Virus record (IMG/VR): IMGVR_UViG_3300009149_000131 | Location: 1-35,596 of that record | Length of the DNA: 35,596 nt | Reading direction: 5' to 3' (one strand) | DNA from: a virus | Shown: positions 7,264 through 34,791 of the stretch, piece by piece | How the letters are laid out: every line of letters begins with the position of its first letter | Position numbering within the stretch: position 1 is the first letter of the stretch | Translations under genes and position numbers: made by a program | Notes under the pieces: generated by a model | What the model was told of the DNA's origin: nothing | The model's input: the letters and a program-made list of their open reading frames with translations, nothing else | Databases searched by the model: none

Positions 7264-7270
7264 ATTCAAT

Positions 7271-7490
7271 CGTTGACACGTTTTGAACTTTACCGAAAAC
7301 GAACTTCCTTCAAAGTTGTTCGTTGTTCGGTTTTAAACTTCGCCGAAAAACTACTTTGCGCAAAATCAATCGTTGATCGGTTTTTGATTCGGTCGTTTTT
7401 GAACTTCTTAAAAAATCAATCGTTGCCCGTTTTTTTCTTTGATCGTTTTTGAACTTCCTTAAAAATCAATCCTTCGCCAATATTCCAGGC
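7271..7490 (+). repeat. Array A: 50-bp-period tandem repeats
   Basis: Four imperfect 50-bp units start at 7271, 7321, 7371 and 7421, with a degenerate fifth at 7471. Each begins cgttg, continues with a t-rich ggtttt block and gaactt, and most end aaaatcaat. Unit junctions carry dyads such as ATCAA-TCG-TTGAT (7366-7378). The 50-bp period is not a multiple of three and stops occur in all frames, so it is not coding. The reverse complement of unit 7321-7370 matches 19274-19323 in array B at roughly four of five positions. It fills the gap between the last late gene and the first early promoter. Confidence 0.9.
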
Positions 7491-7521
7491 AATCAAAAAT
7501 ATTTCTTTTAAAATTATTCTT

Positions 7522-7534
7522 CCTGATCTTCAGG
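7522..7534 (+). repeat. CCTG...CAGG upstream element, copy 1
   Basis: CCTGA-TCT-TCAGG, preceded by ctt and followed by cagttag. It belongs to a conserved block that lies about 60-75 bp upstream of five of the early promoters. Confidence 0.7.
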
Positions 7535-7568
7535 CAGTTAGCATTATTCTATAAAAATAATTGTTATC

Positions 7569-7602
7569 TTTCGTTAGTTTATCAATTTAATTACTATCTT
7601 TA
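7569..7602 (+). promoter_or_regulatory. Early promoter P1
   Basis: The -7 box TATCTTTA (7595-7602) is followed by the conserved leader catcgaactttaaaacta. The upstream box is weak (TTTC at 7569, 22-bp spacing). It drives the 7628 operon. Confidence 0.75.
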
Positions 7603-7627
7603 CATCGAACTTTAAAACTAAAAAGAT

Positions 7628-8005
7628 ATGAAAACTTTAAAAGACTTTACAAACGATCAACAATTAAACGTGGAAACTGAAATTAAATTTCAAGTTAATC
7701 AAACGCAAGGAAATTCGGTTGACGCTTACGGAACGGGGGATTATGTTTCTTATTGCGAATACGAAGTTAAACGTAAACAAATGATTTGCGACATACCAAA
7801 GCCGCAGGGCGGAACGAAAGATTCGGAAATTTGTTTTTCTGACGAACTTTTGGTTATTCAAAACAACGAAGGCGTTTGTAAATTCGGAACGTTTTCGAAT
7901 CCAAAATTGGCGGATCTATTTTGCAAAGCATTAAACGAAACGGATCAGGCGGAATTATTAGATCTTATTAATTCGGATCCTTACAAATCAAATATTATAC
8001 TTTAA
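7628..8005 (+). CDS. Unknown early protein, first gene of operon 1
   Basis: The protein has 125 aa, soluble and acidic toward the C-terminus, and no family is recognised. It has four cysteines (YVSYCEYE, MICDIP, SEICFS, GVCKF) plus one near the end. The start is the first ATG after promoter P1 and the common leader. The gene is followed by a GGGGG/CCCCC hairpin and two small genes. As the promoter-proximal gene of an early operon it may be a host-takeover protein, but nothing in the sequence shows a specific function. Confidence 0.75.
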   Translation: MKTLKDFTNDQQLNVETEIKFQVNQTQGNSVDAYGTGDYVSYCEYEVKRKQMICDIPKPQGGTKDSEICFSDELLVIQNNEGVCKFGTFSNPKLADLFCKALNETDQAELLDLINSDPYKSNIIL

Positions 8006-8012
8006 AAAACCA

Positions 8013-8038
8013 GGGGGCGGGATCTTTCTTCCCCCTTT
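8013..8038 (+). terminator. G:C hairpin after first gene of operon 1
   Basis: GGGGG (8013-8017), a 13-base loop and CCCCC (8031-8035) are followed by tttt. This is probably a partial terminator or a stabiliser of the upstream message, because two more genes follow without a promoter. Confidence 0.55.
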
Positions 8039-8050
8039 TAAATAAAAATT

Positions 8051-8251
8051 ATGTCAATTATTTTAAAAAAACAAAATTCATTTTTAAGGGTTCGCCATTT
8101 ATTAGCAGACGAATTAATTATTAATTTCAGATTACAAAAAATTTACGGATCCCTTTTCGAAGGTTCCGAACTGGAAAAGGAATTTTGTAAACTCGAAACC
8201 CGATACCGAAACGAAAAGCATTTAAAAAAAATAGGTATTAATCGAAACTAA
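8051..8251 (+). CDS. Small basic unknown protein
   Basis: The protein has 66 aa, with basic helices (RVRHLLADELIINFRLQKIY) and a charged C-terminus (KLETRYRNEKHLKKIGI). The start follows aaataaaaattATG, typical here. It is co-transcribed with 7628 and 8257, 5 bp from the latter. No family is recognised. Confidence 0.65.
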   Translation: MSIILKKQNSFLRVRHLLADELIINFRLQKIYGSLFEGSELEKEFCKLETRYRNEKHLKKIGINRN

Positions 8252-8256
8252 AAAAT

Positions 8257-8478
8257 ATGAAATTATTAAAAACATTATTGAAGGAAAACAACCTGAAAAA
8301 AGAAACGGATTATTACGATTTAATTTTGTCGCATTTTTTTAAAGGAAATCATTTTAAAGCGTCGGAATTATTCCAGGATTTAAAGATTGCAAAAAAGGAA
8401 TTCTTCCTTTGCAGTTATTTAGCCCCCGAACCTTTCGCAAAAGTTATAAAATTCTTTATTAAAGAATTATTAACTTAA
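8257..8478 (+). CDS. Small unknown protein, end of operon 1
   Basis: The protein has 73 aa, Lys/Leu/Phe-rich and probably all-helical, with one moderately hydrophobic stretch (EFFLCSYLAPEPFAKVIKFF). The stop codon is nine bases before the CCTG-CAGG block of the next early promoter. No family is recognised. Confidence 0.65.
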   Translation: MKLLKTLLKENNLKKETDYYDLILSHFFKGNHFKASELFQDLKIAKKEFFLCSYLAPEPFAKVIKFFIKELLT

Positions 8479-8487
8479 ATTAATCTT

Positions 8488-8500
8488 CCTGGGAATCAGG
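8488..8500 (+). repeat. CCTG...CAGG upstream element, copy 2
   Basis: CCTG-ggaat-CAGG, followed by tagttagataattattataaa, the same extended block as copies 1 and 3. Confidence 0.7.
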
Positions 8501-8538
8501 TAGTTAGATAATTATTATAAAAAAAGTTGTTATTCTTC

Positions 8539-8568
8539 TTTGTATTATAAGTTTAATTACTATCTTTA
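8539..8568 (+). promoter_or_regulatory. Early promoter P2
   Basis: TTTG (8539-8542), 18 bp, TATCTTTA (8561-8568), then catcgaactttaaaactaaa and the ATG at 8593. Confidence 0.85.
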
Positions 8569-8592
8569 CATCGAACTTTAAAACTAAATGAT

Positions 8593-8961
8593 ATGAAAAC
8601 GACTACAAAAGAATTTAACGCAAACAACGAAGTAAGAATTTCAAACCAAAGAATTATCAGAAAAAATTCTGAATTAATCAGGGAAGGAAATAACACTTTA
8701 GAAACTGACAAAGAATTGCATAACGCGGAAGCGGTTTTGGAATGTCAAAAGGAATGCTATTTTGATCTATTGGAAACGGTTAACGTTTCTTATTGGGTTG
8801 GTTATTACAAACATTATTCAAACGTTATCAAAATCGGAAAAACTTATTACCACAGATTCGAAAAAATGACGCAATCGAACGGGTTTCGATCGGTTACTGA
8901 AATCGAAGAAATAACGGATCGAATGAAGTCGCAAATGTTATCCGATTCTTACGCAATGTAA
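8593..8961 (+). CDS. Unknown early protein, first gene of operon 2
   Basis: The protein has 122 aa. A polar helical N-terminal half (IRKNSELIREGNNTLETDKE) is followed by an aromatic-rich segment (VSYWVGYYKHYSNVIKIGKTYY). There is no signal peptide and no recognised family. The start is the first ATG after promoter P2 and the common leader. A strong G:C hairpin separates it from the recombination genes downstream. Confidence 0.75.
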   Translation: MKTTTKEFNANNEVRISNQRIIRKNSELIREGNNTLETDKELHNAEAVLECQKECYFDLLETVNVSYWVGYYKHYSNVIKIGKTYYHRFEKMTQSNGFRSVTEIEEITDRMKSQMLSDSYAM

Positions 8962-8966
8962 ATCCA

Positions 8967-8996
8967 GGGAAGGGGGATTAATTCCCCCGCCCTTTT
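8967..8996 (+). terminator. G:C hairpin after first gene of operon 2
   Basis: GGG-aa-GGGGG (8967-8976) pairs with CCCCC-g-CCC (8984-8992) around an AT loop and is followed by TTTT. It lies just after the stop of 8593 and before recombination genes that lack their own promoter, so termination is probably partial. Confidence 0.6.
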
Positions 8997-9027
8997 AAAT
9001 AAAATTATAAACTAATAAATTGAAATT

Positions 9028-9228
9028 ATGCCAAAAGAAGTAATTATTGTAAAATCCGAAAAGGATTTAAAAGATCAAACCGCGGAAGCCTGGGGAAGTT
9101 TAACCAGGGTTTGCAAAGAATACGATTGTTTCCCTTATCACACGTTAAAGGTTTTAAAATTTCCCTTTACGTTTGCGGGATTTAGATTCATAAAAGTAAA
9201 ATATAACGAAAAGCATAAATTGAAATAA
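9028..9228 (+). CDS. Small unknown protein upstream of Erf
   Basis: The protein has 66 aa, basic, and looks like a small alpha/beta domain (TRVCKEYDCFPYHTLKVLKF, then PFTFAGFRFIKVKYN). The layout could suit a DNA-binding helix and wing, but this is weak. The stop is one base from the Erf start region, so it is translationally linked to recombination genes. Confidence 0.65.
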   Translation: MPKEVIIVKSEKDLKDQTAEAWGSLTRVCKEYDCFPYHTLKVLKFPFTFAGFRFIKVKYNEKHKLK

Positions 9229-9229
9229 T

Positions 9230-9847
9230 ATGAAAACTTTATTAAAAATTCAAAAGGTAATTGATAAAATAAAAGAATCGGACGTTAAAAAACTGGGTCG
9301 CAACGATTTTTCGGGTTACGATTATTTTACCCCCGAACAAATTGACGGGATCGTTTCGGCTGAATGCAAAACGGAAAAGTTGTTTTATAAATTCGATTTA
9401 GCGCGAAACGAATTCGGAATTTCAGGATCTTTAAAAATTTATGACCTGGAAGATTTAAAAGCGGAACCGATCGTTTTCGAAATGGCTTCGGACGTTCCCG
9501 CAATTACCGCAACGAACGCGGCGCAGCAATTGGGCGGTTCAATGACTTATACAAAACGTTATCTTTTACAAAACGCGTTTAATATAAATGATAATAATTT
9601 GGATCCTGATTCAACGAACCAAACAAAGAAGCGGGAAGAAATAAAAATTACCTGGTTAACGAAACCACAATTCGAATCGGCTTTAAATTCTAACGTTAAG
9701 GGAATCGGGGCAACCCTGGAAAAGTATTCAACGGCAACGTTTAAAATGTCAAAGGAATTTAAAACGCAACTTGAAAATAAATTGAACGATTTAATTTCTT
9801 CGGACGGGGAACCAACAAACGAACAATTACACGGAACTAATAATTAA
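9230..9847 (+). CDS. erf: Erf-type single-strand annealing protein
   Basis: The protein has 205 aa. The segment around residues 90-119 (AITATNAAQQLGGSMTYTKR, then YLLQNAFNI) is the family signature of ERF recombinases, where a Gly-Ser-x-x-x-Tyr-x-x-Arg/Lys-Tyr motif is conserved. The N-terminal part (KLGRNDFSGYDYFTPEQI) also fits ERF proteins. These anneal complementary single strands in phage recombination and genome circularisation. The C-terminal ~70 residues are a polar, less conserved tail. The neighbours are Gp157-like, NinB-like and, one operon later, NinG, forming a recombination set. Confidence 0.88.
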   Translation: MKTLLKIQKVIDKIKESDVKKLGRNDFSGYDYFTPEQIDGIVSAECKTEKLFYKFDLARNEFGISGSLKIYDLEDLKAEPIVFEMASDVPAITATNAAQQLGGSMTYTKRYLLQNAFNINDNNLDPDSTNQTKKREEIKITWLTKPQFESALNSNVKGIGATLEKYSTATFKMSKEFKTQLENKLNDLISSDGEPTNEQLHGTNN

Positions 9848-9871
9848 TATTAACTTTTAAAATTTAAAAAT

Positions 9872-10426
9872 ATGAAAAACGAAGCGGAAAACGGAACTGA
9901 TTTTGAACTTCAGGAAATCGAAAAGAATAAAACGCCAGTAAAAAACAAATCTTTATTTAATATTCAGGAAGATTTTAACGGGCTTATGCGAACGATTGAA
10001 GACGCCGAAGGGGAAATTACCCCCGAAATGGAAAAAGCCCTGGAAATCAACGAAAAAGACCTTCAAAAGAAATCAATCGGTTATCTGGAAATTATGAAAC
10101 AAAAGGAAGGGCGGGTTTTAATGTATGACAACGAAATAAAAAGATTGCAGTCGTTAAAGAAAACGGAAGAAAATTCAATTGATCGTTTAAAAAATAGTTT
10201 GTTAAACGCGGTTAAAATGTTCGGGGAATTTACTTCGGGAACCGTTACGTTTAAAACCCGAAAAAGTTCTTCGTTAATAATTGAAAACGAAGATTTGATT
10301 CCTGAAATTTATAAGACGGAAGTAACGATTATTAAAATTGACAAAGCGCGAATTAAATCGGATCTGAAAACGGGAAAAGTTGTTTCCGCTTATCTTCAGG
10401 AAAACGAAAATCTAATGATTAAATAA
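9872..10426 (+). CDS. Gp157-like protein
   Basis: The protein has 184 aa. From about residue 28 it has the layout of the Siphovirus Gp157 family: a helical segment around EDAEGEITPEMEKALEINEK, then KSIGYLEIMKQKEGRVLMYD. A central coiled coil (EIKRLQSLKKTEENSIDRLK) is followed by the beta-rich end TVTFKTRKSSSLIIENED and IPEIYKTEVTIIKIDKARIK. Gp157 proteins are linked with phage recombination modules, often next to annealases, and have been associated with phage resistance. It ends in TAATG shared with the next gene. The start follows aatttaaaaatATG. Confidence 0.8.
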   Translation: MKNEAENGTDFELQEIEKNKTPVKNKSLFNIQEDFNGLMRTIEDAEGEITPEMEKALEINEKDLQKKSIGYLEIMKQKEGRVLMYDNEIKRLQSLKKTEENSIDRLKNSLLNAVKMFGEFTSGTVTFKTRKSSSLIIENEDLIPEIYKTEVTIIKIDKARIKSDLKTGKVVSAYLQENENLMIK

Positions 10427-10863
10427 TGATTAAGAAAATTCAAATCTTTACAAATATTGTTAACGGCAAAATAGCCAGGAACCGCAAAAGCCTGGTTAAT
10501 TGCCTGCGCGAACACGAAGGGAAGGAAATCGTTATTTCTATTGAAAGGAAGAACAAAAAACATTCAGACAATCAACGGGGTTATTATTTCGGCGTTATTG
10601 TTTCAATGGTTCGCGCGGCAATATTTGATTCCTGGGGGGACAAATTGGATTCAAACCAGGTTCACGAAATATTAAAATTCAATTGTAATTGGACTGAACG
10701 CGTAAACAAAGAAACGGGGGAAATTATAAGGATCGCCAAAAGCATTAAAGAACACACGACAACCGATCAGGAAGAATTCCATTTGGAATGCAGGAAATGG
10801 GCGAAGGATTGGTTTAATATTGAAATTCCCCTTCCTAACGAACAAATCGAAATTAAAGTTTAA
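10426..10863 (+). CDS. NinB-like recombination protein (probable)
   Basis: The protein has 145 aa, close to lambda NinB (about 146 aa). The N-terminal third parallels NinB: a basic helix followed by EIVISIERKNKKHSDNQRGY and YFGVIVSMV, comparable to the strand, basic 'QNR' motif and helix of NinB. Near the end TTTDQEEFHLECRKWAKDWF corresponds to the conserved C-terminal helices. NinB promotes annealing and Holliday-junction recombination. It shares a stop/start (TAATG) with Gp157-like. The call is from remembered pattern, not a search, so a generic recombination-region hypothetical is the alternative. Confidence 0.55.
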   Translation: MIKKIQIFTNIVNGKIARNRKSLVNCLREHEGKEIVISIERKNKKHSDNQRGYYFGVIVSMVRAAIFDSWGDKLDSNQVHEILKFNCNWTERVNKETGEIIRIAKSIKEHTTTDQEEFHLECRKWAKDWFNIEIPLPNEQIEIKV

Positions 10864-10873
10864 AATTATTCTT

Positions 10874-10886
10874 CCTGGTTATCAGG
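10874..10886 (+). repeat. CCTG...CAGG upstream element, copy 3
   Basis: CCTG-gttat-CAGG, 10 bases after a stop codon, followed by tagttaagtaattattataaa. Confidence 0.7.
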
Positions 10887-10924
10887 TAGTTAAGTAATTA
10901 TTATAAAAATAATTAATATCCTTC

Positions 10925-10954
10925 TTTGTTTTATCAATTTAGTTCGTATCTTTA
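10925..10954 (+). promoter_or_regulatory. Early promoter P3
   Basis: TTTG (10925-10928), 18 bp, TATCTTTA (10947-10954), then catcgaactttaaaactaaa and the ATG at 10979. Confidence 0.85.
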
Positions 10955-10978
10955 CATCGAACTTTAAAACTAAAACAA

Positions 10979-11209
10979 ATGAAAAAGCAAATTTTAACAA
11001 TCGCATTCAGAAACTTAACAACAAACGAGGAAGGAATTATTACTTTATTCGCTTCTAATCCTTTTATGTTATTAAATAAGGTTAACAAGTTTTTAACCCG
11101 CGAAATTTGGGTTGGAAGTTGGAATTTAATTAATAATAACTGGGAAGCGGGAAACAAAGGAATGAACGCTGAACCTTATCTTTGGGAAACTTTAGAAGAA
11201 TTAAATTAA
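10979..11209 (+). CDS. Unknown early protein, first gene of operon 3
   Basis: The protein has 76 aa, a small beta/alpha protein with a Trp-rich second half (REIWVGSWNLINNNWEAGNK). No family is recognised. It follows promoter P3 directly and is followed within 2 bp by an HTH gene, without the G:C hairpin seen in other early operons. Confidence 0.7.
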   Translation: MKKQILTIAFRNLTTNEEGIITLFASNPFMLLNKVNKFLTREIWVGSWNLINNNWEAGNKGMNAEPYLWETLEELN

Positions 11210-11211
11210 TT

Positions 11212-11484
11212 ATGTATTTAAGGGATTTAAAACATAAAATTATTAACGAAGTAGATATTAACAATCTACTTCGTTATTTTAGCGCGCAGGAAATCGCTTC
11301 AGTTTTTGGGGTAACTGAAGATTATGTTTATAAAACGCGAACCCTTCAGCGGATCCAGGCGGAAGAAAATTTTAATAAAAATATTTATAACGATACGGAC
11401 GAAATGAAATTGGGAAGGGTTGGCGCCTGGAAACTTTCAAAGGAACGTAAATGTTTAAACGAATCAAAAAACGAAGAAATATGA
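11212..11484 (+). CDS. Small helix-turn-helix protein
   Basis: The protein has 90 aa starting at ATG 11212 (aattaattATG), preferred over an upstream in-frame start inside the previous gene. Residues about 20-45 (YFSAQEIASVFGVTEDYVYK) form a classical helix-turn-helix followed by a basic recognition-helix end (TRTLQRIQ). It may regulate transcription or help load replication proteins. Its stop overlaps the start of the replication gene (ATGA), so the two are co-translated. The C-terminus is basic (AWKLSKERKCLNESKNEE). Confidence 0.65.
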   Translation: MYLRDLKHKIINEVDINNLLRYFSAQEIASVFGVTEDYVYKTRTLQRIQAEENFNKNIYNDTDEMKLGRVGAWKLSKERKCLNESKNEEI

Positions 11485-12167
11485 AAGGCAAAAAATCAGT
11501 TTTAATTTATTGCGATATAATTCACACGGTCGAAAAACTGGACGACGAAAACGCGGGGTTATTATTTAAACACCTTTTAAGATATGTTAACGATCAGGAA
11601 CCCGAAGCCCCGAACCTTTTAATTGAAATCGCATTTGAAGGGATTAAACAAACGTTAAAAAGGGATTTAAAAACCTGGGAAAACAAATCGGAAATTCGAA
11701 GCCGTTCGGGGCAAATTGGAAACTTAAAACGTTACAATCCTGATATTTACGCGGATTTTATCAATAAAAAAATTACATTTGACGAAGCGGAAGAACTCGC
11801 AAAGGATCGCAAAGGATCGCAAGCGGTCGCAAATATCGCCGTTAAAGATATTGTAAAAGATAAAGATATTGTAAAAGATAAAGTAATTAATAAAAATAAA
11901 ACTATAAAGGAACGCGAAACGGAATTTAAAAATTCCTTACTTCCTTTTTTGGATATTTACGGAAAAGATATGTTAAATAAATTTTTTCTTTATTGGACTG
12001 AAAAAAAACCAAACGGTAAAAAAATGCGGTTCGAAATGGAAAAAGTTTTTGATCCTGAAAGAAGATTGACAACCTGGAATAATAAAAATTTTAATAATAA
12101 CGATAAAAATTCAACAAATGGAAAACGCCCTGGAAAAAGTAGAATTGAAAAATTTACTGGAAATTAG
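11481..12167 (+). CDS. Replication protein, DUF6291-like N-terminus
   Basis: The protein has 228 aa from ATG 11481, which overlaps the previous stop as ATGA. The N-terminal domain (SVLIYCDIIHTVEKLDDENA, then GLLFKHLLRYVND) matches the DUF6291-type domain often found in replication regions of Bacteroidetes phages. A linker with repeats follows at about 104-145 (KDRKGSQAVANIAVKDIVKD), then a C-terminal domain (PFLDIYGKDMLNKFFLYWTE) typical of replication-initiator or primosome-loader C-termini. The linker DNA carries iterons and AT-rich repeats (see 11791). It overlaps the next gene by 50 bp. Confidence 0.65.
   Translation: MKGKKSVLIYCDIIHTVEKLDDENAGLLFKHLLRYVNDQEPEAPNLLIEIAFEGIKQTLKRDLKTWENKSEIRSRSGQIGNLKRYNPDIYADFINKKITFDEAEELAKDRKGSQAVANIAVKDIVKDKDIVKDKVINKNKTIKERETEFKNSLLPFLDIYGKDMLNKFFLYWTEKKPNGKKMRFEMEKVFDPERRLTTWNNKNFNNNDKNSTNGKRPGKSRIEKFTGN
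11791..11915 (+). other. Candidate replication origin inside the replication gene
   Basis: Five tandem 10-bp units run from 11791 to 11840: aagaactcgc, aaaggatcgc, aaaggatcgc, aagcggtcgc, aaatatcgcc. Directly after come two perfect 18-bp repeats (aaagatattgtaaaagat, 11844-11861 and 11862-11879) and a long AT-only-like stretch to about 11915. Iterons followed by an AT-rich unwinding region inside an initiator gene is the arrangement of lambda O/ori. Function here is inferred. Confidence 0.55.
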
Positions 12168-12825
12168 AATTAAGGAAAAAAACAATTATAATAATTATTC
12201 CTTCGAAGATCGAAATTTGTTTTCCGAAGTTTTTAATTCAATTGCTTTTCAATTAGGAATTCGGGAATTTTTGGTTCCTGAAGAATTAAAAATAATATTT
12301 GATTTCCTGAATAAACATTTTGGCGGTTTTTCTTTAAATGATTTGCGGGAATCTTTCAGTTATTATTCCGCGCAAAAATTAAACTTTAAAGATTCGCATT
12401 TTCAAAGTTTAGACAATGTATTTATCGGGCGCGTTTTAACTTCTTATAAAGAATTTATTTCGAACGAATTAAGGAATAAACCCAAACGAATTAATTCGGA
12501 ACCAATTAAAGCCCTAACGTTTAACGAAATTAAATTTGAAGCGGATCAATCTTTGAAGGATTTCAGGGAAGGAAAAGATTTGTCGAAATATAGTTTTATT
12601 TTTATTTACAATTATTATAAAGAAAAAGGATTGATAAAATTTGAAGGATCCCAGGCAAAGGAATTTCAGGAAAAAGTTAAACGGGAAATTTTAAACGAAG
12701 TTGATCTTCAGAAAAAGGAAGGGAAAAAAGGAACCGCAACTTTATTGTTATTGCAAATTAAAACTTTATTTTACGGGGAATGTAAAAAAAGGGCGGTTTT
12801 AAATTATTACGAATCAATCAAATGA
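12118..12825 (+). CDS. Unknown replication-region protein
   Basis: The protein has 235 aa, rich in Phe, Asn, Lys and Glu and predicted helical (IREFLVPEELKIIFDFLNKH, then LNDLRESFSYYSAQ). It overlaps the upstream replication gene by 50 bp and the downstream NinG gene by 4 bp, so it is translated as part of that operon. Position suggests a replication helper such as a helicase loader, but I see no Walker motif and assign no function. Confidence 0.7.
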   Translation: MENALEKVELKNLLEIRIKEKNNYNNYSFEDRNLFSEVFNSIAFQLGIREFLVPEELKIIFDFLNKHFGGFSLNDLRESFSYYSAQKLNFKDSHFQSLDNVFIGRVLTSYKEFISNELRNKPKRINSEPIKALTFNEIKFEADQSLKDFREGKDLSKYSFIFIYNYYKEKGLIKFEGSQAKEFQEKVKREILNEVDLQKKEGKKGTATLLLLQIKTLFYGECKKRAVLNYYESIK

Positions 12826-13433
12826 TTAAGCCAAAGGAAAAGAAATGTAAGGGATCAGGGAAGGCGAAGGGCTTCGGCTGCGGGACAATGCAATTAAAAA
12901 GGCGTTACGGGTTGGGGTTGAATTGCTGCTTCGGTTCCTGGCTTTATACTTCGGACGAAGGAAAAAAGATCGTAAACAAAACAACGAACAAAGTAACCGC
13001 CCCCCGCGTTTCATTAGAAAAAGCAATTGAAAACAAAAGGAAAACGAAGGGGATAACGGCGCAATTACTTTATACAAAAGAATTAGTACATCAGGCGATT
13101 AGATTAAGGGACACGGGCAAACCTTGCATTTCCTGCGGCGCGGGTTGGAACGAACATTTTCAGGCGGGACACTTTTACAACGCGAATAATTATCGAAGTA
13201 TTAAATTTAATTTCCTGAATATAAACGGGCAATGTCGGCAATGTAATTTATTAAAGGACGGGAATTTTACCGAATATCAATTTCGACTTCCTGAAAGGAT
13301 CGGGGAAGAATTATTTCAGCAACTCGAAGAATTGGCGCGCCTGGATAAACATTCGAATAAACATTGGTTCGTTGACGAATTAAAAATAATTCAAAAGGAA
13401 GCCAAAATTATTATAAAAGAATATAAAAAATAA
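12822..13433 (+). CDS. ninG: NinG/Rap-type recombination nuclease
   Basis: The protein has 203 aa and matches the lambda NinG (Rap) family, a Holliday-junction-targeting endonuclease. Family hallmarks visible are CISCGA (Cys102, Cys105), QAGHFYNANNYRSIKFNFLN (with His117) and INGQCRQCN (Cys138, Cys141), forming a zinc-bound HNH-like core with the typical spacing. The N-terminus has another cysteine set (Cys9, Cys20, Cys35, Cys36), also usual in NinG. Length is as expected. It ends the replication/recombination operon, just ahead of a candidate small RNA and terminator. Confidence 0.9.
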   Translation: MIKPKEKKCKGSGKAKGFGCGTMQLKRRYGLGLNCCFGSWLYTSDEGKKIVNKTTNKVTAPRVSLEKAIENKRKTKGITAQLLYTKELVHQAIRLRDTGKPCISCGAGWNEHFQAGHFYNANNYRSIKFNFLNINGQCRQCNLLKDGNFTEYQFRLPERIGEELFQQLEELARLDKHSNKHWFVDELKIIQKEAKIIIKEYKK

Positions 13434-13434
13434 G

Positions 13435-13442
13435 TATCTTTG
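13435..13442 (+). promoter_or_regulatory. -7 promoter box upstream of a possible small RNA
   Basis: TATCTTTG matches TAnnTTTG exactly and begins one base after the NinG stop codon. No clear TTTG is found 17-23 bp upstream, so it may be weak or activator-dependent. Confidence 0.45.
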
Positions 13443-13448
13443 TTATTC

Positions 13449-13518
13449 ATTCCCGCGTTTTCATATTTCGCAGGCTTTGAAGTTCAGAAAAACCCCTGAT
13501 TTATCGGGGGTTTTTTGT
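13449..13518 (+). ncRNA. Candidate small RNA ending in intrinsic terminator
   Basis: The interval of about 70 bases between the TATCTTTG box and a strong terminator holds no ORF of useful size. Its 3' end is the terminator hairpin. It could be a small RNA or just the NinG 3' UTR. Confidence 0.35.
13489..13517 (+). terminator. Intrinsic terminator after NinG
   Basis: AAAAACCCCTGA pairs with TCGGGGGTTTTT around a TTTA loop: a 12-bp stem with one G:T pair, with a T-run. It isolates the operon 3 genes from promoter P4. Confidence 0.92.
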
Positions 13519-13554
13519 GTTTAATAAAGTTTTTTGAAAATAAATCGAAAAAAG

Positions 13555-13585
13555 TTTGGTATTATAAAGATAATGTATATCTTTA
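13555..13585 (+). promoter_or_regulatory. Early promoter P4
   Basis: TTTG (13555-13558), 19 bp, TATCTTTA (13578-13585), then catcgaactttaaaac and the ATG at 13609. The sequence from aaagtttg to the -7 box is nearly identical to P6. Confidence 0.85.
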
Positions 13586-13608
13586 CATCGAACTTTAAAA
13601 CAAACGAT

Positions 13609-13935
13609 ATGTTAAACACTAATAAAATAACAAAAGAAAACCTTCAAACGTTGGGAAACCTTTTAAGAAACAACAAAGGAATTAAAACTTTGAATATTTT
13701 AAACGAAGGAAGTAATTCTTTCGAAACTAAAAAGGAATTTTGTAACGAAATAATAAATCTTTTAGAATCGGGAAAACTTTTGCAAGTTGTTTGCATTACT
13801 CGAAGCGGATATTTTGGCGAAACTCGAATTAACTTAAACAATTATAAAAACGATTCTGAAATTGAATCAATTCAAATCGGGGTTTATAAATTAACCGAAA
13901 ATAAATCGAATCCTTCGGAATGGACTTTGGATTAA
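13609..13935 (+). CDS. Unknown early protein, single-gene operon 4
   Basis: The protein has 108 aa from ATG 13609, chosen because it follows promoter P4 and the common leader; an upstream in-frame start would lie before the promoter. An alpha/beta layout is suggested (IKTLNILNEGSNSFETKKEF, LLQVVCITRSGYFGETRINL). No family is recognised. A terminator with a UUCG loop follows, so this is a monocistronic early gene. Confidence 0.75.
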   Translation: MLNTNKITKENLQTLGNLLRNNKGIKTLNILNEGSNSFETKKEFCNEIINLLESGKLLQVVCITRSGYFGETRINLNNYKNDSEIESIQIGVYKLTENKSNPSEWTLD

Positions 13936-13940
13936 TTCCA

Positions 13941-13959
13941 GGGGTTCGCCCCAATTTTT
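13941..13959 (+). terminator. GGGG-TTCG-CCCC terminator
   Basis: GGGG (13941-13944), TTCG tetraloop, CCCC (13949-13952), then aattttt. UUCG is an exceptionally stable RNA tetraloop. It lies six bases after a stop codon. Confidence 0.8.
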
Positions 13960-13988
13960 AAAAAAAAATAAAAATAAATTGAAATAAA

Positions 13989-14019
13989 TTTGCAGTTATC
14001 AAAATAATAACTATCTTTA
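13989..14019 (+). promoter_or_regulatory. Early promoter P5
   Basis: TTTG (13989-13992), 19 bp, TATCTTTA (14012-14019), then catcgaactttaaaacta and the ATG at 14043. Confidence 0.85.
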
Positions 14020-14042
14020 CATCGAACTTTAAAACTATTAAT

Positions 14043-14318
14043 ATGAAAATCGAAAACTTTAACCCTGGAATTTTAACACCTTCGCAAAATCTTTACTTCT
14101 TTGACGGTTGTATTATTGAATACTTCGAAGGGGATCCGTTTAAAATATTCGGAAGTATTGACGTTAATTTTATTGAAAACGAAATTGATATTTCTTATTT
14201 TGATTTAACAATAATTAAAGATTTTAACGGAAGAACAATTTCGTTGTCGGATCAAATAAGAAGGGAAATCGAAAAAGCCCTGGAAGATAAATTGGAAACT
14301 TTAAACGTTGAATTATGA
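14043..14318 (+). CDS. Unknown early protein, first gene of operon 5
   Basis: The protein has 91 aa, acidic, with beta-rich first two-thirds (YFFDGCIIEYFEGDPFKIFG, IDISYFDLTIIKDFNG) and a charged helix at the end (SDQIRREIEKALEDKLETLN). No family is recognised. It overlaps the next gene by 4 bp. Confidence 0.7.
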   Translation: MKIENFNPGILTPSQNLYFFDGCIIEYFEGDPFKIFGSIDVNFIENEIDISYFDLTIIKDFNGRTISLSDQIRREIEKALEDKLETLNVEL

Positions 14319-14500
14319 AAAGGAATTTAAGACACGAACATTTCAACCGAATAAGGGAAATTATTTTGAACCCGAAGAACAACGAATTAAATATTTCTTC
14401 GATCGGAAATCTGATCAGAAATTTTATTTTAATGTTTGGAATTTCCCCGCTATCAAATAATTTAGAATTATTAAAATTAGAATTAATTAAAACCTTTTAA
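14315..14500 (+). CDS. Small unknown protein
   Basis: The protein has 61 aa, basic N-terminus (MKRNLRHEHFNRIREIIL), helical, with a mildly hydrophobic middle (IGNLIRNFILMFGISPL). The start overlaps the upstream stop (ATGA). No family is recognised. Confidence 0.6.
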   Translation: MKRNLRHEHFNRIREIILNPKNNELNISSIGNLIRNFILMFGISPLSNNLELLKLELIKTF

Positions 14501-14503
14501 TTA

Positions 14504-14773
14504 ATGACATTGTTAAAATTAAACAAAGAAGAATTAAGCCCCGAAGAAAAGGCGGTTTTATTAATCGAATCATTTTACGAAGTTTTTCCGATCGTTGGAT
14601 TATTAAGCGGAATAAAAGATTATGAAAAAGCAAAGAAGGGCGCGATCGTTTGCCAGGAAAAAACAATTGAAAAATTATCTGAATACGATATTTATTCCGA
14701 ATATGAAAAAGAAATATTAAATAAAATTATAAACTTTAAAACTAAAAAATATGTCAAAGGCAAGTCGAATTAA
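14504..14773 (+). CDS. Small unknown helical protein
   Basis: The protein has 89 aa, acidic and helical (LSPEEKAVLLIESFYEVFPI, then VGLLSGIKDYEKAKKG). The last 23 bases overlap the start of the winged-helix gene. Near its 3' end the DNA contains aaactttaaaactaaaaaat, resembling the common early leader. No family is recognised. Confidence 0.65.
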   Translation: MTLLKLNKEELSPEEKAVLLIESFYEVFPIVGLLSGIKDYEKAKKGAIVCQEKTIEKLSEYDIYSEYEKEILNKIINFKTKKYVKGKSN

Positions 14774-15131
14774 TTATTTAGAACAATTACACCGCGGAAA
14801 TTTAGAAAACTTTCGAATCGGAATTTTAGATTATATCAAACGCAACGGGCGAAAAAGTACGGAAGAATTAAGAAACGAATTAATTTATCCGCATCAAACG
14901 CTTACGGGAAGTTTAAGCGTTTTGACGGACTTCGGATTAATTAAGGTTGTCGATACTATTCAAAAGGAAAAAGAAGGCAGGAAATCGACCTTCAGCGTTT
15001 ACGAATTTGTTTTTAATGAATTCGAACAATTGGAACTTCAGGAAGCCCGACATTTAGAAAAGGCGAAAAACTGGCTAAAAGGTTACAATAAATTTAAGGG
15101 CGTTTTAAAAATTAGTTTAATCGAATATTAA
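14751..15131 (+). CDS. Winged helix-turn-helix regulator
   Basis: The protein has 126 aa. Residues about 20-85 form a winged-helix domain: a first helix (FRIGILDYIKRNGRKSTEEL), a recognition region (RNELIYPHQTLTGSLSVLTD), then a wing (FGLIKVVDTIQKEKEGRKST). The C-terminal part is a charged helix suitable for dimerisation. This is the clearest DNA-binding regulator in the early block and a candidate to act on the repeated early promoters or the 50-bp arrays; that target is inferred. Start ATG 14751 follows actaaaaaatATG. It is the last gene of operon 5. Confidence 0.7.
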   Translation: MSKASRINYLEQLHRGNLENFRIGILDYIKRNGRKSTEELRNELIYPHQTLTGSLSVLTDFGLIKVVDTIQKEKEGRKSTFSVYEFVFNEFEQLELQEARHLEKAKNWLKGYNKFKGVLKISLIEY

Positions 15132-15135
15132 TCTT

Positions 15136-15148
15136 CCTGGTTATCAGG
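15136..15148 (+). repeat. CCTG...CAGG upstream element, copy 4
   Basis: CCTG-gttat-CAGG, five bases after a stop codon; identical core to copy 3, followed by tagttagata. Confidence 0.7.
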
Positions 15149-15184
15149 TAGTTAGATAAAAAAGCGAAAATAATTTGTTTAAAG

Positions 15185-15215
15185 TTTGGTATTATAAAGA
15201 TAATTACTATCTTTA
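15185..15215 (+). promoter_or_regulatory. Early promoter P6
   Basis: TTTG (15185-15188), 19 bp, TATCTTTA (15208-15215). The downstream leader differs from the other copies (cataagttaaacgaaac) before the ATG at 15256. Confidence 0.82.
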
Positions 15216-15255
15216 CATAAGTTAAACGAAACAAACGAACTTAAAACTTTAAAAT

Positions 15256-15492
15256 ATGAAAACTTACTTAACAACTTTAATCGAAGAAAAAGGAAGATCA
15301 ACCGAAGCGGAAATTCAATTGAACGGACATTTTGGATTAACTTACGAAATGTTAATTGATTACATCGAATCGGCAAAACAATTTCACGGGGAAATTAAAA
15401 ACACTTTAGTAAAAATCGACTTTTTAAACGGGGACGTTTTTCATTACCTGGATTATTTGGCGGCGGGAATGGTTAAAGCATTAGGATATTAA
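15256..15492 (+). CDS. Unknown early protein, first gene of operon 6
   Basis: The protein has 78 aa, with an N-terminal strand/helix (KTYLTTLIEEKGRSTEAEIQ) and a central helix (GLTYEMLIDYIESAKQFHGE). Two strands and a helix end the chain (KIDFLNGDVFHYLDYLAAGM). No family is recognised. It is followed by a perfect 8-bp G:C hairpin. Confidence 0.72.
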   Translation: MKTYLTTLIEEKGRSTEAEIQLNGHFGLTYEMLIDYIESAKQFHGEIKNTLVKIDFLNGDVFHYLDYLAAGMVKALGY

Positions 15493-15498
15493 AAAAAC

Positions 15499-15522
15499 GG
15501 GGCGGGATCAAACCCCCGCCCC
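15499..15522 (+). terminator. G:C hairpin after first gene of operon 6
   Basis: GGGGCGGG (15499-15506) pairs perfectly with CCCGCCCC (15515-15522). There is no real T-run after it (ttaattat), so it is more likely a processing or stabilising hairpin than a full terminator. Confidence 0.6.
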
Positions 15523-15555
15523 TTAATTATAAATTGAACTTTAAAATTTAAAAAT

Positions 15556-15978
15556 ATGAATTGCAAAATAAACGATACTATTTATAGAATAAATCTAAAT
15601 AAGGCGCAGCCGTCGAAATATTCACTTCGCGAAACGGGTTTGTTTATCGAAAAATTTAAGATCCTGGGAATTTCAGAAACAAAAATTTGTTTGAATGACG
15701 AAAATTTTACAACCTTTAAGATCCTGGAAACGGGAAAAAAACGCTATTCCTGGTATTCTTATTTAGATAATATTTCCGTAAACATTAAAACAAACGAAAC
15801 GTTATTTGAAAACGGCGTTTTTATAACGCTTTATTCCACAAAGAAGCCAACGAAAAAAACCTTTCAAAAAATGGCAGCAACCGCAGCAATTGAAGCGAAG
15901 GAAAAGTTCGGATTCTTATTTGGAAACGTTGGCGAAGAATTAAACGAAATTGTTAATAATTACAAACCCGCGAAATGA
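15556..15978 (+). CDS. Unknown early protein
   Basis: The protein has 140 aa, an alpha/beta protein with a beta-rich middle (YSWYSYLDNISVNIKTNETL) and a helical, Ala-rich end (FQKMAATAAIEAKEKFGFLF). The start follows attgaactttaaaatttaaa, a variant of the common leader lacking a promoter. It overlaps the next gene by 4 bp. No family is recognised. Confidence 0.7.
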   Translation: MNCKINDTIYRINLNKAQPSKYSLRETGLFIEKFKILGISETKICLNDENFTTFKILETGKKRYSWYSYLDNISVNIKTNETLFENGVFITLYSTKKPTKKTFQKMAATAAIEAKEKFGFLFGNVGEELNEIVNNYKPAK

Positions 15979-16304
15979 TTTTTAATAATAAAACAATAAT
16001 CGAAGCCCTGAAATCCTGGGCGATCGAAAAGGGAATTGCGAAAACGGATTTAGTCGCGGAAGATTTGGCGAATATGGTTATTGAAAAGATAAAGGAAAAC
16101 AAAGAATTGAAGGACTTCAGGCAAAATATAATTTTTGATTCCTTCAGGATCGCGAACAATTATCGAAAGATCGAAGAACAAAACGAATCCTTTAAAACTA
16201 TGTTAAAAGAAGTTTCCGAAGGTTTAACGGATCGCGGGGGCTTCGAAATAATAACGGCGAAGATTAACGAAGTTTTAAAAGGGAATGAAGAAACCGCAGG
16301 ATAA
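15975..16304 (+). CDS. Unknown helical protein
   Basis: The protein has 109 aa, strongly helical and charged (IIEALKSWAIEKGIAKTDLV, MVIEKIKENKELKDFRQNII). The start overlaps the upstream stop (ATGA) and the end overlaps a 43-aa membrane ORF. No family is recognised. Confidence 0.68.
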   Translation: MIFNNKTIIEALKSWAIEKGIAKTDLVAEDLANMVIEKIKENKELKDFRQNIIFDSFRIANNYRKIEEQNESFKTMLKEVSEGLTDRGGFEIITAKINEVLKGNEETAG

Positions 16305-16416
16305 AGATTTTATTAAATTGATCGAAGCGGGAATTTTTGGAATAACCGCGGGAATCGTTGTCGGCTGCGTAATTATGTATTATTTTTTAAAATTAATCTT
16401 CCTGGCTTTCAGTTAG
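16285..16416 (+). CDS. Tiny membrane protein (43 aa)
   Basis: It starts 20 bp before the end of the previous gene. The protein has a charged N-terminus (MKKPQDKDFIKLIEAGI) and one hydrophobic segment (GIFGITAGIVVGCVIMYYFL). Its stop lies within the CCTG-CAGT element of the next promoter region. Overlap and membrane character support it, but it is short. Confidence 0.5.
   Translation: MKKPQDKDFIKLIEAGIFGITAGIVVGCVIMYYFLKLIFLAFS
16401..16413 (+). repeat. CCTG...CAGT upstream element, copy 5
   Basis: CCTG-gcttt-CAGT, imperfect copy of the upstream block, with the following tagttag preserved. Confidence 0.6.
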
Positions 16417-16449
16417 TTAGCTAATTAATTGAAAATAATTTGTTTAAAG

Positions 16450-16480
16450 TTTGCAGGTATAAAGATAATTCGTATCTTTA
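16450..16480 (+). promoter_or_regulatory. Early promoter P7
   Basis: TTTG (16450-16453), 19 bp, TATCTTTA (16473-16480), then catcgaactttaaaactaaa and the ATG at 16505. Confidence 0.85.
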
Positions 16481-16504
16481 CATCGAACTTTAAAACTAAA
16501 TGAT

Positions 16505-16666
16505 ATGAAAAAGCAAGCAATTACAAAATCAAAAGTTATCGCAAGGTTAATTAAATGGGGTAACAACGAAGAAAACGCAACGAAATACACGAACGAACAT
16601 TTTGATTACGCGGTTAAATATTACGGAACCGTTTCGAAGGTTGCCGAAGTTATAATGAGCCTTTAA
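16505..16666 (+). CDS. Small basic early protein (53 aa), first gene of operon 7
   Basis: The protein begins MKKQAITKSKVIARLIKWGN and ends TVSKVAEVIMSL. It has the exact position of a first early gene: 24 bp after promoter P7, same leader, followed by a G:C hairpin. Basic residues and a possible helix-turn-helix-like end (YYGTVSKVAEVIM) hint at nucleic-acid binding, but no family is recognised. Confidence 0.7.
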   Translation: MKKQAITKSKVIARLIKWGNNEENATKYTNEHFDYAVKYYGTVSKVAEVIMSL

Positions 16667-16673
16667 AATAAAC

Positions 16674-16698
16674 GGGGGGGGGATCTGAACCCCCCCCC
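16674..16698 (+). terminator. G9/C9 hairpin after first gene of operon 7
   Basis: Nine G (16674-16682), a seven-base loop (atctgaa) and nine C (16690-16698): a 9-bp all-G:C stem. No T-run follows, so it is likely a processing or stabilising element, or a partial terminator. Confidence 0.6.
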
Positions 16699-16724
16699 AT
16701 TAATTGAACTTTAAAATTAAAAAT

Positions 16725-17258
16725 ATGCTTAACCAGGAATTAAAAGAAAAATTATTAAAACTTTACGAATTAAGTAAAAGGGGGATCGGGGGCGAAAAAA
16801 CAAACGCGGAAACCTTCCTTCAAAAATTATTAGATAAACACGGGTTAACGATTGACGACATAGACGCAAACGTTAAAAAGGAAAGGTTTTATAAATATAC
16901 AACGAAGGCGAACAAATCAATTATTCTTCAGGTTATTTTTTCAATATTAGGGGAAAAAGGATCCCTTTATTCAAACAAAAGTTATAAAGAAGTTATCACG
17001 GACGCGACCGATTACGAAAATATTCAGATAATCGAAAAAATTGATTTCCATTTGGAAAACTTCGAAGCGGATCGGAAGCAAATTTTTAACGACTTTAAAT
17101 CCGCGTACATTCAAAAACATAGGTTATTTCCTATGGATAACGGGGACACGGACGAAGAATGTAAGCCGTTAACACCTGAAGAACGCGCGGCAATTATGCG
17201 GGCGGCGCACTTGCAAACCGTTTTAAATAATAATACTTATACTAAAAAATTAGATTAA
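16725..17258 (+). CDS. DUF2786-like protein
   Basis: The protein has 177 aa from ATG 16725 (ttaaaattaaaaatATG). The N-terminal 40 residues (KLLKLYELSKRGIGGEKTNA, then ETFLQKLLDKHGLTIDDID) have the DUF2786 pattern of two helices ending in an 'HGL' turn. The rest includes a basic YKYTTKANKSIILQVIFSIL segment and a long charged helix. The function of DUF2786 proteins is not established. It shares TAATG with the next gene. Confidence 0.65.
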   Translation: MLNQELKEKLLKLYELSKRGIGGEKTNAETFLQKLLDKHGLTIDDIDANVKKERFYKYTTKANKSIILQVIFSILGEKGSLYSNKSYKEVITDATDYENIQIIEKIDFHLENFEADRKQIFNDFKSAYIQKHRLFPMDNGDTDEECKPLTPEERAAIMRAAHLQTVLNNNTYTKKLD

Positions 17259-17623
17259 TGACAAACCAGGAAAAAAAAGAATTGCCAAAACATTATCGAT
17301 ACGTTCGCGAATACCCTTTGAACTGGGACACCGAACCGCCCGATCAGGAAGGAAAAATTAAATTAGTTGAATTCGAAGCGATCAGGGAAACCCCTTCGGG
17401 ATATTGGATCAAAGAATTAAGCGCCTGGGGATTCGCTACGAAGCCGCGGTTCGTTTTAAAAGTATCGCGGAAGCGTTTCGCCTATCAAACAAAAAAGGAA
17501 GCGTTTAAATCGTTTAAAATACGAACGAATAAATCCTGGGGTTATGCTGAACGGGATTTGAATAACGCAAAAATGTTTTTTAAATTGATTGAAGGATTTG
17601 ATTTATCCCAGTTAGAACAATGA
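17258..17623 (+). CDS. Unknown protein upstream of small terminase
   Basis: The protein has 121 aa, basic and aromatic-rich (HYRYVREYPLNWDTEPPDQE, SGYWIKELSAWGFATKPRFV). Its end is helical (AYQTKKEAFKSFKIRTNKSW). No family is recognised. It overlaps both neighbours (stop/start TAATG upstream, 4 bp downstream). Confidence 0.7.
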   Translation: MTNQEKKELPKHYRYVREYPLNWDTEPPDQEGKIKLVEFEAIRETPSGYWIKELSAWGFATKPRFVLKVSRKRFAYQTKKEAFKSFKIRTNKSWGYAERDLNNAKMFFKLIEGFDLSQLEQ

Positions 17624-17874
17624 CGGAAGCGGAAGAAATACATAAACAACTTATTTCGAATAAGGATTTCCAGGTTATCGCAATCGAAGATCGTTCCCGA
17701 TTAAATAGGATAAATTCGATTTGTTGGTTTTATTACATTAGCGCAACGATAATATTCGAAGCGAAGGAATACAACGTTTTTATCTTTAAGGCGCGCAAAG
17801 GGATTAAAAAGGATATTCAGGAAAAGGAATCAATCCCGCATAACATTAAATTATTATCTTTGATAAATGACTGA
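17620..17874 (+). CDS. Unknown small protein upstream of small terminase
   Basis: The protein has 84 aa, with an alpha/beta layout with one hydrophobic strand region (SICWFYYISATIIFEAKEYN) and a basic segment (VFIFKARKGIKKDIQEKE). It overlaps the small terminase start by 8 bp. No family is recognised. Confidence 0.65.
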   Translation: MTEAEEIHKQLISNKDFQVIAIEDRSRLNRINSICWFYYISATIIFEAKEYNVFIFKARKGIKKDIQEKESIPHNIKLLSLIND

Positions 17875-18391
17875 AGAAAAATTAACACCAAAACAAACCC
17901 GTTTCGCGGAAGAATTCCTTTTGGATCTTAACGGAACCCAGGCAGCAATCCGCGCGGGATATTCGAAAGATTCAGCAAAAGAAATCGCGTCGCAAAACTT
18001 AACAAAACTTAACGTTCAAAATTATATCGCGGAACTTCAGGCGGAACGCGCCAAAGAATTAAAAATTAATTCAAATGAAGTTCTTCGCAAAATTCGCGAC
18101 ATTGCTTTTTCTGACATAACGCGAACAATGACTTTAAGCGTTACGGAATTCGAAGATTTGCCCGAATCGGTTCGTTTATGTATTTCAAAATTTAAAACCT
18201 TTACGCGAACTTATGACATAGGGGAAGAAACGATTTCGGAAACAACCGTTGAATTATGGTTTTGGGATAAAATGAAGGCGTTTGATATGTTAAATAAACA
18301 TATCGGATTTTATGAAAAGGACAACGAACAACAAAATAATATAACTATCTTTGAACTTCCTTCGAATGGACGCGAAGCAAAAGAAGAATAA
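17867..18391 (+). CDS. terS: Terminase small subunit
   Basis: The protein has 174 aa. Residues 6-54 carry the Terminase_2 family pattern: LTPKQTRFAEEFLLDLNGTQ, AAIRAGYSKDSAKEIASQNL, then KLNVQNYI. This N-terminal helix-turn-helix domain recognises the packaging site. The segment LRKIRDIAFSDITRTM and a beta-rich oligomerisation region (TTVELWFWDKMKAFDMLNKH) follow, as is usual. It sits at the distal end of the early block, 1.2 kb upstream of the large subunit, with repeat array B between them, an unusual separation. Confidence 0.9.
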   Translation: MTEEKLTPKQTRFAEEFLLDLNGTQAAIRAGYSKDSAKEIASQNLTKLNVQNYIAELQAERAKELKINSNEVLRKIRDIAFSDITRTMTLSVTEFEDLPESVRLCISKFKTFTRTYDIGEETISETTVELWFWDKMKAFDMLNKHIGFYEKDNEQQNNITIFELPSNGREAKEE

Positions 18392-18454
18392 AAAAGTTTT
18401 ATTTTCCCCCTGGGACAACCTGACTAAATAATTGAAAACCAGGACTTTAAAAAT

Positions 18455-18607
18455 ATGAAAAAATTACTTCAGTATTTCGCAAATCAAATAATTATTAAAA
18501 TTGATAATTGCCTGATCGTTTGGGATCCCGAATCCGCGTTGGGTTGGGTTAACGTTGGGAAGCAATTAAACGGCTTCGCGATATATTTCGGAATTGAATT
18601 AAATTAA
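18455..18607 (+). CDS. Small unknown protein (50 aa)
   Basis: It begins MKKLLQYFANQIIIKIDN and ends GFAIYFGIELN, with a small beta-rich middle (CLIVWDPESALGWVNVGKQL). The start context (gactttaaaaatATG) is typical here. It lies between small terminase and array B. No family is recognised. Confidence 0.6.
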   Translation: MKKLLQYFANQIIIKIDNCLIVWDPESALGWVNVGKQLNGFAIYFGIELN

Positions 18608-18612
18608 AACAA

Positions 18613-18801
18613 ATGATTAAATTTACTATTCAATACATTAATTTTTTATTGCATAAAAATATAAAAAATGATAATAAAAAGAATAAAACGAATCGTTCGA
18701 ATTGTTCGATTTCTTTGCCGTCCGCATATCTTGAAAGTTGCGAAGGCGGGGAATCAATAACACCGCGACCGAAAACAACGCAATCAATTGATTCGTTTTA
18801 A
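18613..18801 (+). CDS. Possible small protein (62 aa), uncertain
   Basis: It starts 5 bp after the 50-aa gene and reads MIKFTIQYINFLLHKN, then a Lys/Asn-rich stretch and a polar end. A second frame (18668 to 18907) overlaps it and also looks partly coding but has an in-frame TAA at 18758-18760. Which frame is used cannot be settled by eye. Confidence 0.4.
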   Translation: MIKFTIQYINFLLHKNIKNDNKKNKTNRSNCSISLPSAYLESCEGGESITPRPKTTQSIDSF

Positions 18802-18907
18802 CAATGCGGAAGGCAATAATTATATTATACATTTATCTTCGAATATTGTTAACGGAATTTTATTCGATCGAAGTATTTTAAACAAAACCAATAAATTAAA
18901 AATATGA
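18668..18907 (+). pseudogene. Possible interrupted reading frame
   Basis: Frame starting ATG 18668 (MIIKRIKRIVRIVRFL) meets TAA at 18758-18760, then stays open (QLIRFNNAEGNNYIIHLSSN) to TGA at 18905-18907, which overlaps the next start as ATGA, a junction typical of real coupled genes here. It could be a decayed gene, a short downstream gene from a non-ATG start, or coincidence. Confidence 0.3.
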
Positions 18908-19008
18908 AAAAAATTAAAAGCAAAAGGAAGCGAAAACAATTAGGGAAATTAATAATCGAATATTCTTCCGAACGTTACCCAAAACACAAAGTTAAAAAAG
19001 GGCGTTAA
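18904..19008 (+). CDS. Tiny basic protein (34 aa)
   Basis: It begins MKKIKSKRKRKQLGKLII and ends KVKKGR, extremely Lys/Arg-rich. The start context (aaattaaaaatATG) is typical. It lies immediately before array B, last in the early direction. It could bind nucleic acid; no family. Confidence 0.5.
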   Translation: MKKIKSKRKRKQLGKLIIEYSSERYPKHKVKKGR

Positions 19009-19153
19009 AGAAATTGTTCGAACGTTGCCTTTTTAAAGAAGTTCAAAAACGTTAGAAAATAAAAACGTCAACGATCAACTTTTTACGAAGTTCGTTTTCG
19101 ATAAACTTAAAAACGTTGCAACGTTGAACAAAAGACAAAGTTCAAACGGACGT

Positions 19154-19184
19154 CCTGCAACCCTTATAAACAAAGGGCTTCAGG
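19154..19184. other. Compound hairpin inside array B
   Basis: CCTG (19154-19157), three bases, CCCTT (19161-19165), a seven-base loop, AAGGG (19173-19177), three bases, CAGG (19181-19184). It interrupts the regular 50-bp units. No T-run follows on the + strand. Confidence 0.55.
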
Positions 19185-19352
19185 GCGTTGTTTTGAAATG
19201 TTGAACAACTTCGGGCGGCAACGTTGCACTTTTAACAAAGTTCAAAAACGATCAACTTCAAAACCGATCAACGATTGATTTTTGTTAAAGTAGTTTTTCG
19301 GCAAAGTTCAAAAGGGATCAACGATTGATTTTAAAAGAAGTTGTTTTTTGAT

Positions 19353-19360
19353 TAACTTTG
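19353..19360 (+). promoter_or_regulatory. Candidate late promoter in last unit of array B
   Basis: TAACTTTG matches TAnnTTTG and lies 37 bp before the first late ORF (19398). The upstream box is poor (TTTT at 19329-19332, 20-bp spacing), which would fit a promoter needing an activator. Confidence 0.4.
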
Positions 19361-19397
19361 AAAACGTTAAAAGATTAAATTTAAAAAACGAAAAAAA

Positions 19398-30405: not shown

Positions 30406-30413
30406 TATCTTTG
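30406..30413 (+). promoter_or_regulatory. Promoter -7 box before structured leader
   Basis: TATCTTTG matches TAnnTTTG; a T-rich block lies about 15-20 bp upstream. It begins three bases after the previous stop and would start a transcript at the leader described next. Confidence 0.55.
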
Positions 30414-34743: not shown

Positions 34744-34791
34744 ATGTTATACAATCCCAATAAAAAAACTTTTACTTTTACTTTATGTTAA
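34744..34791 (+). CDS. Possible 15-aa leader peptide overlapping the protease start
   Basis: ATG 34744 (acaaaattATG, a typical start context) encodes MLYNPNKKTFTFTLC and its stop (34789-34791) lies just inside the protease coding sequence. It could couple translation into the protease/scaffold start, or be chance. Confidence 0.3.
   Translation: MLYNPNKKTFTFTLC

Follow-up and report, generated by a model that had tools for sequence, protein, structure and literature searches.

Two inverted arrays of a diverged 50-bp unit in a Bacteroidota phage genome, a candidate protein-binding DNA element

The question raised by this locus is why a compact 35.5-kb phage genome should carry two arrays of a 50-bp unit, in inverted orientation, on either side of the genes served by its early promoters. 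The window, meaning the whole stretch of DNA analysed, is a virus record of 35,596 bases with an end repeat of 123 bases; contig IMGVR_UViG_3300024262_000442 from a second assembly spans the junction of the record's ends, so the map is circular at approximately 35,473 bases. By its genes the window belongs to a tailed phage of Bacteroidota. They include those for TerS, TerL, the portal, an endolysin and a tape-measure-like protein; the early block encodes Erf, Gam-like, NinB/Orf-like and NinG-like proteins, and all main genes are carried on the + strand. The closest prophage-like TerL in named genomes is from Leeuwenhoekiella marinoflava (65%). A gene for a Clp-like head maturation protease appears to cross the artificial record ends (34787-35596 and 1-391). 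The small-gene block at 15556-17874 has no counterpart in one relative, G001, and forms a variable accessory region; small indels that distinguish the window from the second strain are clustered just upstream of its ORF 15556, at 15496-15536.

Lag-50 autocorrelation and a PWM place array A at 7241-7490, as five whole 50-bp units in - orientation, where the original prediction had four units and a degenerate fifth at 7271-7490. Its cores lie at 7475, 7425, 7375, 7325 and 7275, spaced by exactly 50. Array B, predicted as seven units at 19024-19373, extends from about 18954 to about 19388 as eight slots in + orientation, with cores at 18970, 19020, 19069, 19119, 19219, 19269 and 19319. The strict period that had been proposed is therefore exact in A, whereas in B one step measures 49 bp and one slot (19154-19203) has no core and holds a hairpin; the register is kept across it. 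Together, the arrays occupy about 680 bp.

Both arrays are non-coding except where they overlap the end of an ORF, which qualifies the earlier placement between genes. Array A follows the last gene before it (6691-7263, +), which encodes a 190 aa spanin/lysis-position protein and whose 3' end runs into unit 7241-7290; it precedes the first early promoter (7595), as had been stated. Array B lies between TerL on one side and TerS with small ORFs on the other. The terminase small subunit gene is upstream at 17867-18391 (+; PHROG 51, E 2e-37) and the large subunit gene downstream at 19567-21078 (+; PHROG 979, E 6e-100), and a possible basic ORF of 34 codons read from the sequence (18904-19008, +) overlaps the first slot with its 3' end.

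The periodicity itself was borne out. In both intervals the autocorrelation is highest at lag 50 and exceeds all shuffles, with a lag-50 identity in A of 0.65 vs 0.45 for the best of any lag (500 shuffles) and in B of 0.43 vs a shuffle maximum of 0.40; the two arrays are also the two strongest lag-50 places within the window. When the 11 recognisable units are set in register, the mean pairwise identity is 52%, compared with 28% +/- 0.9% and a maximum of 31% for shuffled units (n=500), so that the units do align better than shuffled sequence. Identity from unit to unit ranges from 30 to 82%, and no repeat is identical to another. Contigs 3300024262_000442 and 3300024262_002197, which are 99.9% identical to the window, carry the arrays without any difference, and an assembly artefact is thereby ruled out: arrays A and B are real.

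The inverted relation between the two arrays was likewise confirmed, with the reverse complement of 7321-7370, expected to agree with 19274-19323 at about 41 of 50 bases, agreeing at exactly 41. BLAST aligns array A in inverted orientation with the right-hand part of B (77% over ~170 bp), and the pair 7341-7390 and 19254-19303 reaches 82% identity, above any pair of units within an array. In-register comparison of A with B is best at zero offset (0.64) and nearly equal at an offset of +50 (0.62). The two ends of A, 7241-7265 and 7491-7515, lie exactly 250 bp apart and resemble each other and also the 3' end of relative L108's homologue of gene 6691-7263, a likeness that fits tandem amplification starting in the gene end. 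The simplest history suggested by these alignments would be that units were amplified at one site, that a single inverted copy reached the other and that the two then diverged. Duplication had been set aside in the original prediction, and the correspondence between A and B, the 82% pair above all, instead indicates it.

In examining the units, conservation is seen to be uneven and focused on a core and an AAGT/A-tract. The part most strongly conserved, a CAACG(A/T)T-type core, is nearly palindromic, varies between units and is flanked by A/T tracts; the most conserved columns are CAACG, the T after it, a TTT run and AAGT. The middle tract of the unit is either AAAAA or TTTTT, and it therefore seems that A/T character rather than the base is kept. 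Each unit may thus be described, as a candidate binding site, as a near-palindromic core of CAACG(A/T)T(T/C)G type with A/T tracts on either side, together with an AAGTTC/A-tract element.

Several kinds of element were considered and rejected. A coding array is discounted, since a period of 50 bp is not divisible by three and neither array is contained in a single ORF. For a structured RNA, no Rfam match was found and the fold of array A is not significant (z -0.1), while the z of -2.1 for 18990-19397 in array B is attributed to the hairpin in slot 4. As the unit occurs in both orientations with respect to transcription and no significant fold is present in A, the arrays are read as an element of DNA and not of RNA. 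CRISPR arrays consist of near-identical repeats with unrelated spacers; here no repeats are identical, and similarity is spread over the core and the AAGT element. The idea that the unit derives from the early promoters was also rejected, the alignment being no better than shuffles.

The distribution of the arrays bears directly on what they could do. In three relatives, G001 (L104), G002 (L105/L106) and L108, the genes across the lysis/early junction are ordered as in the window, and the flanking lysis-position protein is 56-62% identical to that of the window; array A is found in none of the three contigs, which have a short intergenic stretch with an early promoter there. Array B is absent upstream of TerL in six contigs (L002, L003, L004, L005/G001, L006 and L007) with TerL identities of 65-83%, and in L003 and L004 terS abuts terL. 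A set of 153 sequences, most of them related at the protein level, yielded no lag-50 array. Searches of viral contigs with 17-mer, spaced double-core and hairpin patterns returned only the window phage, its second assembly and chance matches in unrelated sequence, a 26-base array pattern had no match in genome contigs, and distant blastn gave one chance match of 30 bp in phages and none in plasmids. Among 299 Flavobacteriaceae genomes, only chance-like matches of 24-52 bp were seen, with no array beside those fetched. Given the negative relatives and array-specific searches, the arrays are confined to this lineage in present data. They had been proposed as a device of the early/late boundary; the arrays exist, yet relatives with the same gene order lack them, and they are therefore not a conserved (ancestral) early/late insulator, boundary device or origin. 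As a separate observation, a terminator-like hairpin (ATCGTATAAGTTTACACGATATTTTT) is present at the lysis/early junction in L104 (12571-12720) and L106 (8851-8911), and the window is without it.

Between A and B lie seven near-identical early promoters on the + strand, at 7595, 8561, 10947, 13578, 14012, 15208 and 16473, of the form TTTG ... TATCTTTAC ATCGAACTTTAAAACTAAA with a Bacteroidota -7 element; the consensus for Bacteroidota is TTTG/TAnnTTTG (PMC6847099). These copies make up a clean early regulon of Bacteroidota type, driving the early block. In six of the seven, TTTG is found at -33, 18-19 bases before the -7 element. The sole exception is the promoter beside A, 100 bp beyond the array, with its -7 element (TATCTTTAC) at 7595-7603 (+) and TTAG/GTTA in place of the -33 TTTG. 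In the last unit of B, TAACTTTG (19353-19360, +) matches the -7 element TAnnTTTG and lies 38 bp before the ATG at 19398 of the first late ORF; it too has no TTTG at -33, and it is a possible late promoter. The missing -33 at 7595 and 19353 is what promoters dependent on a bound helper could show; it was noticed post hoc, on one early promoter and the element in B, and -33 is also missing at position 30406. In slot 4 of B, a hairpin with the arrangement ACGTCCTG-CAA-CCCTT-loop-AAGGG-CTT-CAGGGCGT (19150-19188, +), then TGTTTTG, is probably a terminator of the early/TerS transcript; a simple terminator scan did not flag it, and its sequence occurs in no other viral contig.

The reading that best accommodates these data, held tentatively and at somewhat less than an even chance, is a protein-binding cis element that acts on two transcription starts, was recently acquired and was copied once in inverted orientation. 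Under this reading, A and B would be one lineage-specific, cis-acting DNA element made of tandem sites for a sequence-specific DNA-binding protein, arising when a 50-bp unit was tandemly amplified in this phage lineage and a single inverted copy was placed in another intergenic region. The protein, encoded by phage or host, would most likely coat the arrays and control the adjacent transcription start, namely the first early promoter for A and, at the end of B, the start of the late block; the spacing of the units would be under selection. Several observations favour it: the similarity of units is far above shuffles while their spacing is near-perfect, the register survives a slot whose sequence was replaced, conservation is focused on the core and the AAGT/A-tract, the arrays lie outside genes and upstream of promoter elements, neither of the two adjacent elements has the -33 TTTG present in most early promoters, and the second strain has kept the arrays unchanged. 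Of the operator-type array in the original prediction, protein binding thus remains the best reading, with spacing kept and sequence diverged, and the conserved insulator falls away. The argument that binding would occur on one helical face also does not hold, as 50 bp corresponds to 4.76 turns at 10.5 bp per turn, and the sites are not on one face.

Against protein binding stand the lack of a clear binder, the post hoc nature of the -33 observation with its further case at 30406, and the fact that plain decay could explain the divergence of the units. No repressor family was matched above cut-off in the proteins scanned; the only candidates are two weak HTH-like proteins (14751-15131 and 11182-11484), both of which have homologues in an array-less relative, and the predicted structure of the wHTH candidate at 14751-15131 is of low confidence, with a pLDDT of 43. 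Since relatives keep the gene order without arrays, the role would be dispensable or would compensate for something specific to this phage. A bolder proposal, that twin inverted arrays of a diverged unit, gained recently by one lineage, couple the early and late starts through a binding protein or sequester a host regulator, and so represent an undescribed design, is doubtful.

The main rival holds that the arrays are functionless repeat DNA, produced by slippage of replication that made tandem copies at a gene end, a chance inverted copy elsewhere and decay. We regard it as possible but on balance unlikely. It would account for the absence of arrays in all relatives examined, for unit identities that fall as low as 30-44%, for the replacement of one slot by a hairpin, and for 7241-7265 and 7491-7515, which look like a partial duplication of the gene 3' end. 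Its chief difficulty is that almost no indels accompany 30-60% substitution, which is unusual for decaying non-coding DNA; focused conservation also speaks against it, as do the roughly 680 bp of dead weight retained in so compact a genome and unchanged in the second strain.

The other alternatives are each much less probable. The arrays could be one or two replication origins, or an iteron array, since repeats with A/T tracts are similar to origins in general design; this is improbable, as there is no lasting GC-skew change at the arrays and a putative initiator gene (DUF6291, 11451-12167), 4-7 kb from both, has repeats of its own. Inside that gene, 10-bp repeats (TCGCAAAGGA) at 11797-11833 are followed by AT-rich 18-bp repeats at 11843-11886. 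Repeats within the initiator gene are the layout of lambda O, and on this analysis 11797-11886 is the probable origin, lambda-O-like, if DUF6291 is the initiator. The homologue in G001 (L104) has the same repeat arrangement, yet that relative has neither array, and the earlier suggestion of arrays as origins is accordingly not upheld. A pac-like packaging site bound by TerS would suit the position of B between the two terminase genes, and it has equally little in its favour: a homologous array lies 12 kb away, and in the closest relatives that carry both genes (TerS 69% and TerL 81% identical) terS directly adjoins terL, without an array. A decoy that titrates a host DNA-binding protein, either a regulator or a defence protein, would fit a lineage-specific acquisition with multiple site copies and no phage binder in sight; it is also given a low probability, as the 299 Flavobacteriaceae genomes yielded only short chance-like matches. 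Finally, a centromere-like or DNA-clustering site of the sopC kind, which would hold the phage DNA together or silence neighbouring genes, is suggested by the period, near-palindromic core and unit number, which resemble those of F sopC. It is very unlikely, given the two copies in inverted orientation and no parA/parB match among the proteins scanned (PHROGs, Pfam and NCBIfam); a 34-aa ORF gave a very weak ParB_C match, below cut-off (E 0.044). The partition-like sites proposed at the outset fall under this reading.

If the arrays do bind protein, they would offer a rare handle on the early-to-late switch in Bacteroidota phages, in a genome where one promoter in seven copies forms the early regulon and no late promoter is obvious. 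Should they have no function, they illustrate the speed with which non-coding repeats can arise in a compact phage genome.

The searches, including the literature, returned no described system of this twin-array form, and no described match to the array sequence, to such extreme unit divergence at fixed spacing or to the twin inverted placement. Partial likenesses are seen in several known systems. The ends of transposons with multiple transposase sites (Tn7, Mu) are also inverted site arrays that bracket a DNA segment; a transposon pair was rejected here, since relatives show the bracketed block to be ancestral and none of the proteins scanned was found to be a transposase. Iteron origins of the lambda O type share direct repeats with A/T-rich DNA, but A and B are absent in relatives and the iteron-like repeats sit in the DUF6291 gene. 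Mycobacteriophage L5 carries many copies of its repressor site, the operators and stoperators, between its genes (PMC9283540). Stoperators are asymmetric sites of 13 bp that are dispersed and follow the direction of transcription, whereas the sites of A and B are grouped at a fixed spacing and the two arrays run in opposite directions while the main genes are all on the + strand. The sopC site of the F plasmid consists of twelve 43-bp repeats with 16-bp inverted repeats, and F parS/sopC and ParB-type centromere arrays are, like A and B, non-coding tandem units of ~43-50 bp with a short inverted-repeat core (PMC6238139), which in A and B is near-palindromic and variable. Arrays A and B are unrelated to sopC in sequence, far more diverged from unit to unit and present as two inverted copies; the repeated-site array as such is already a known kind of thing.
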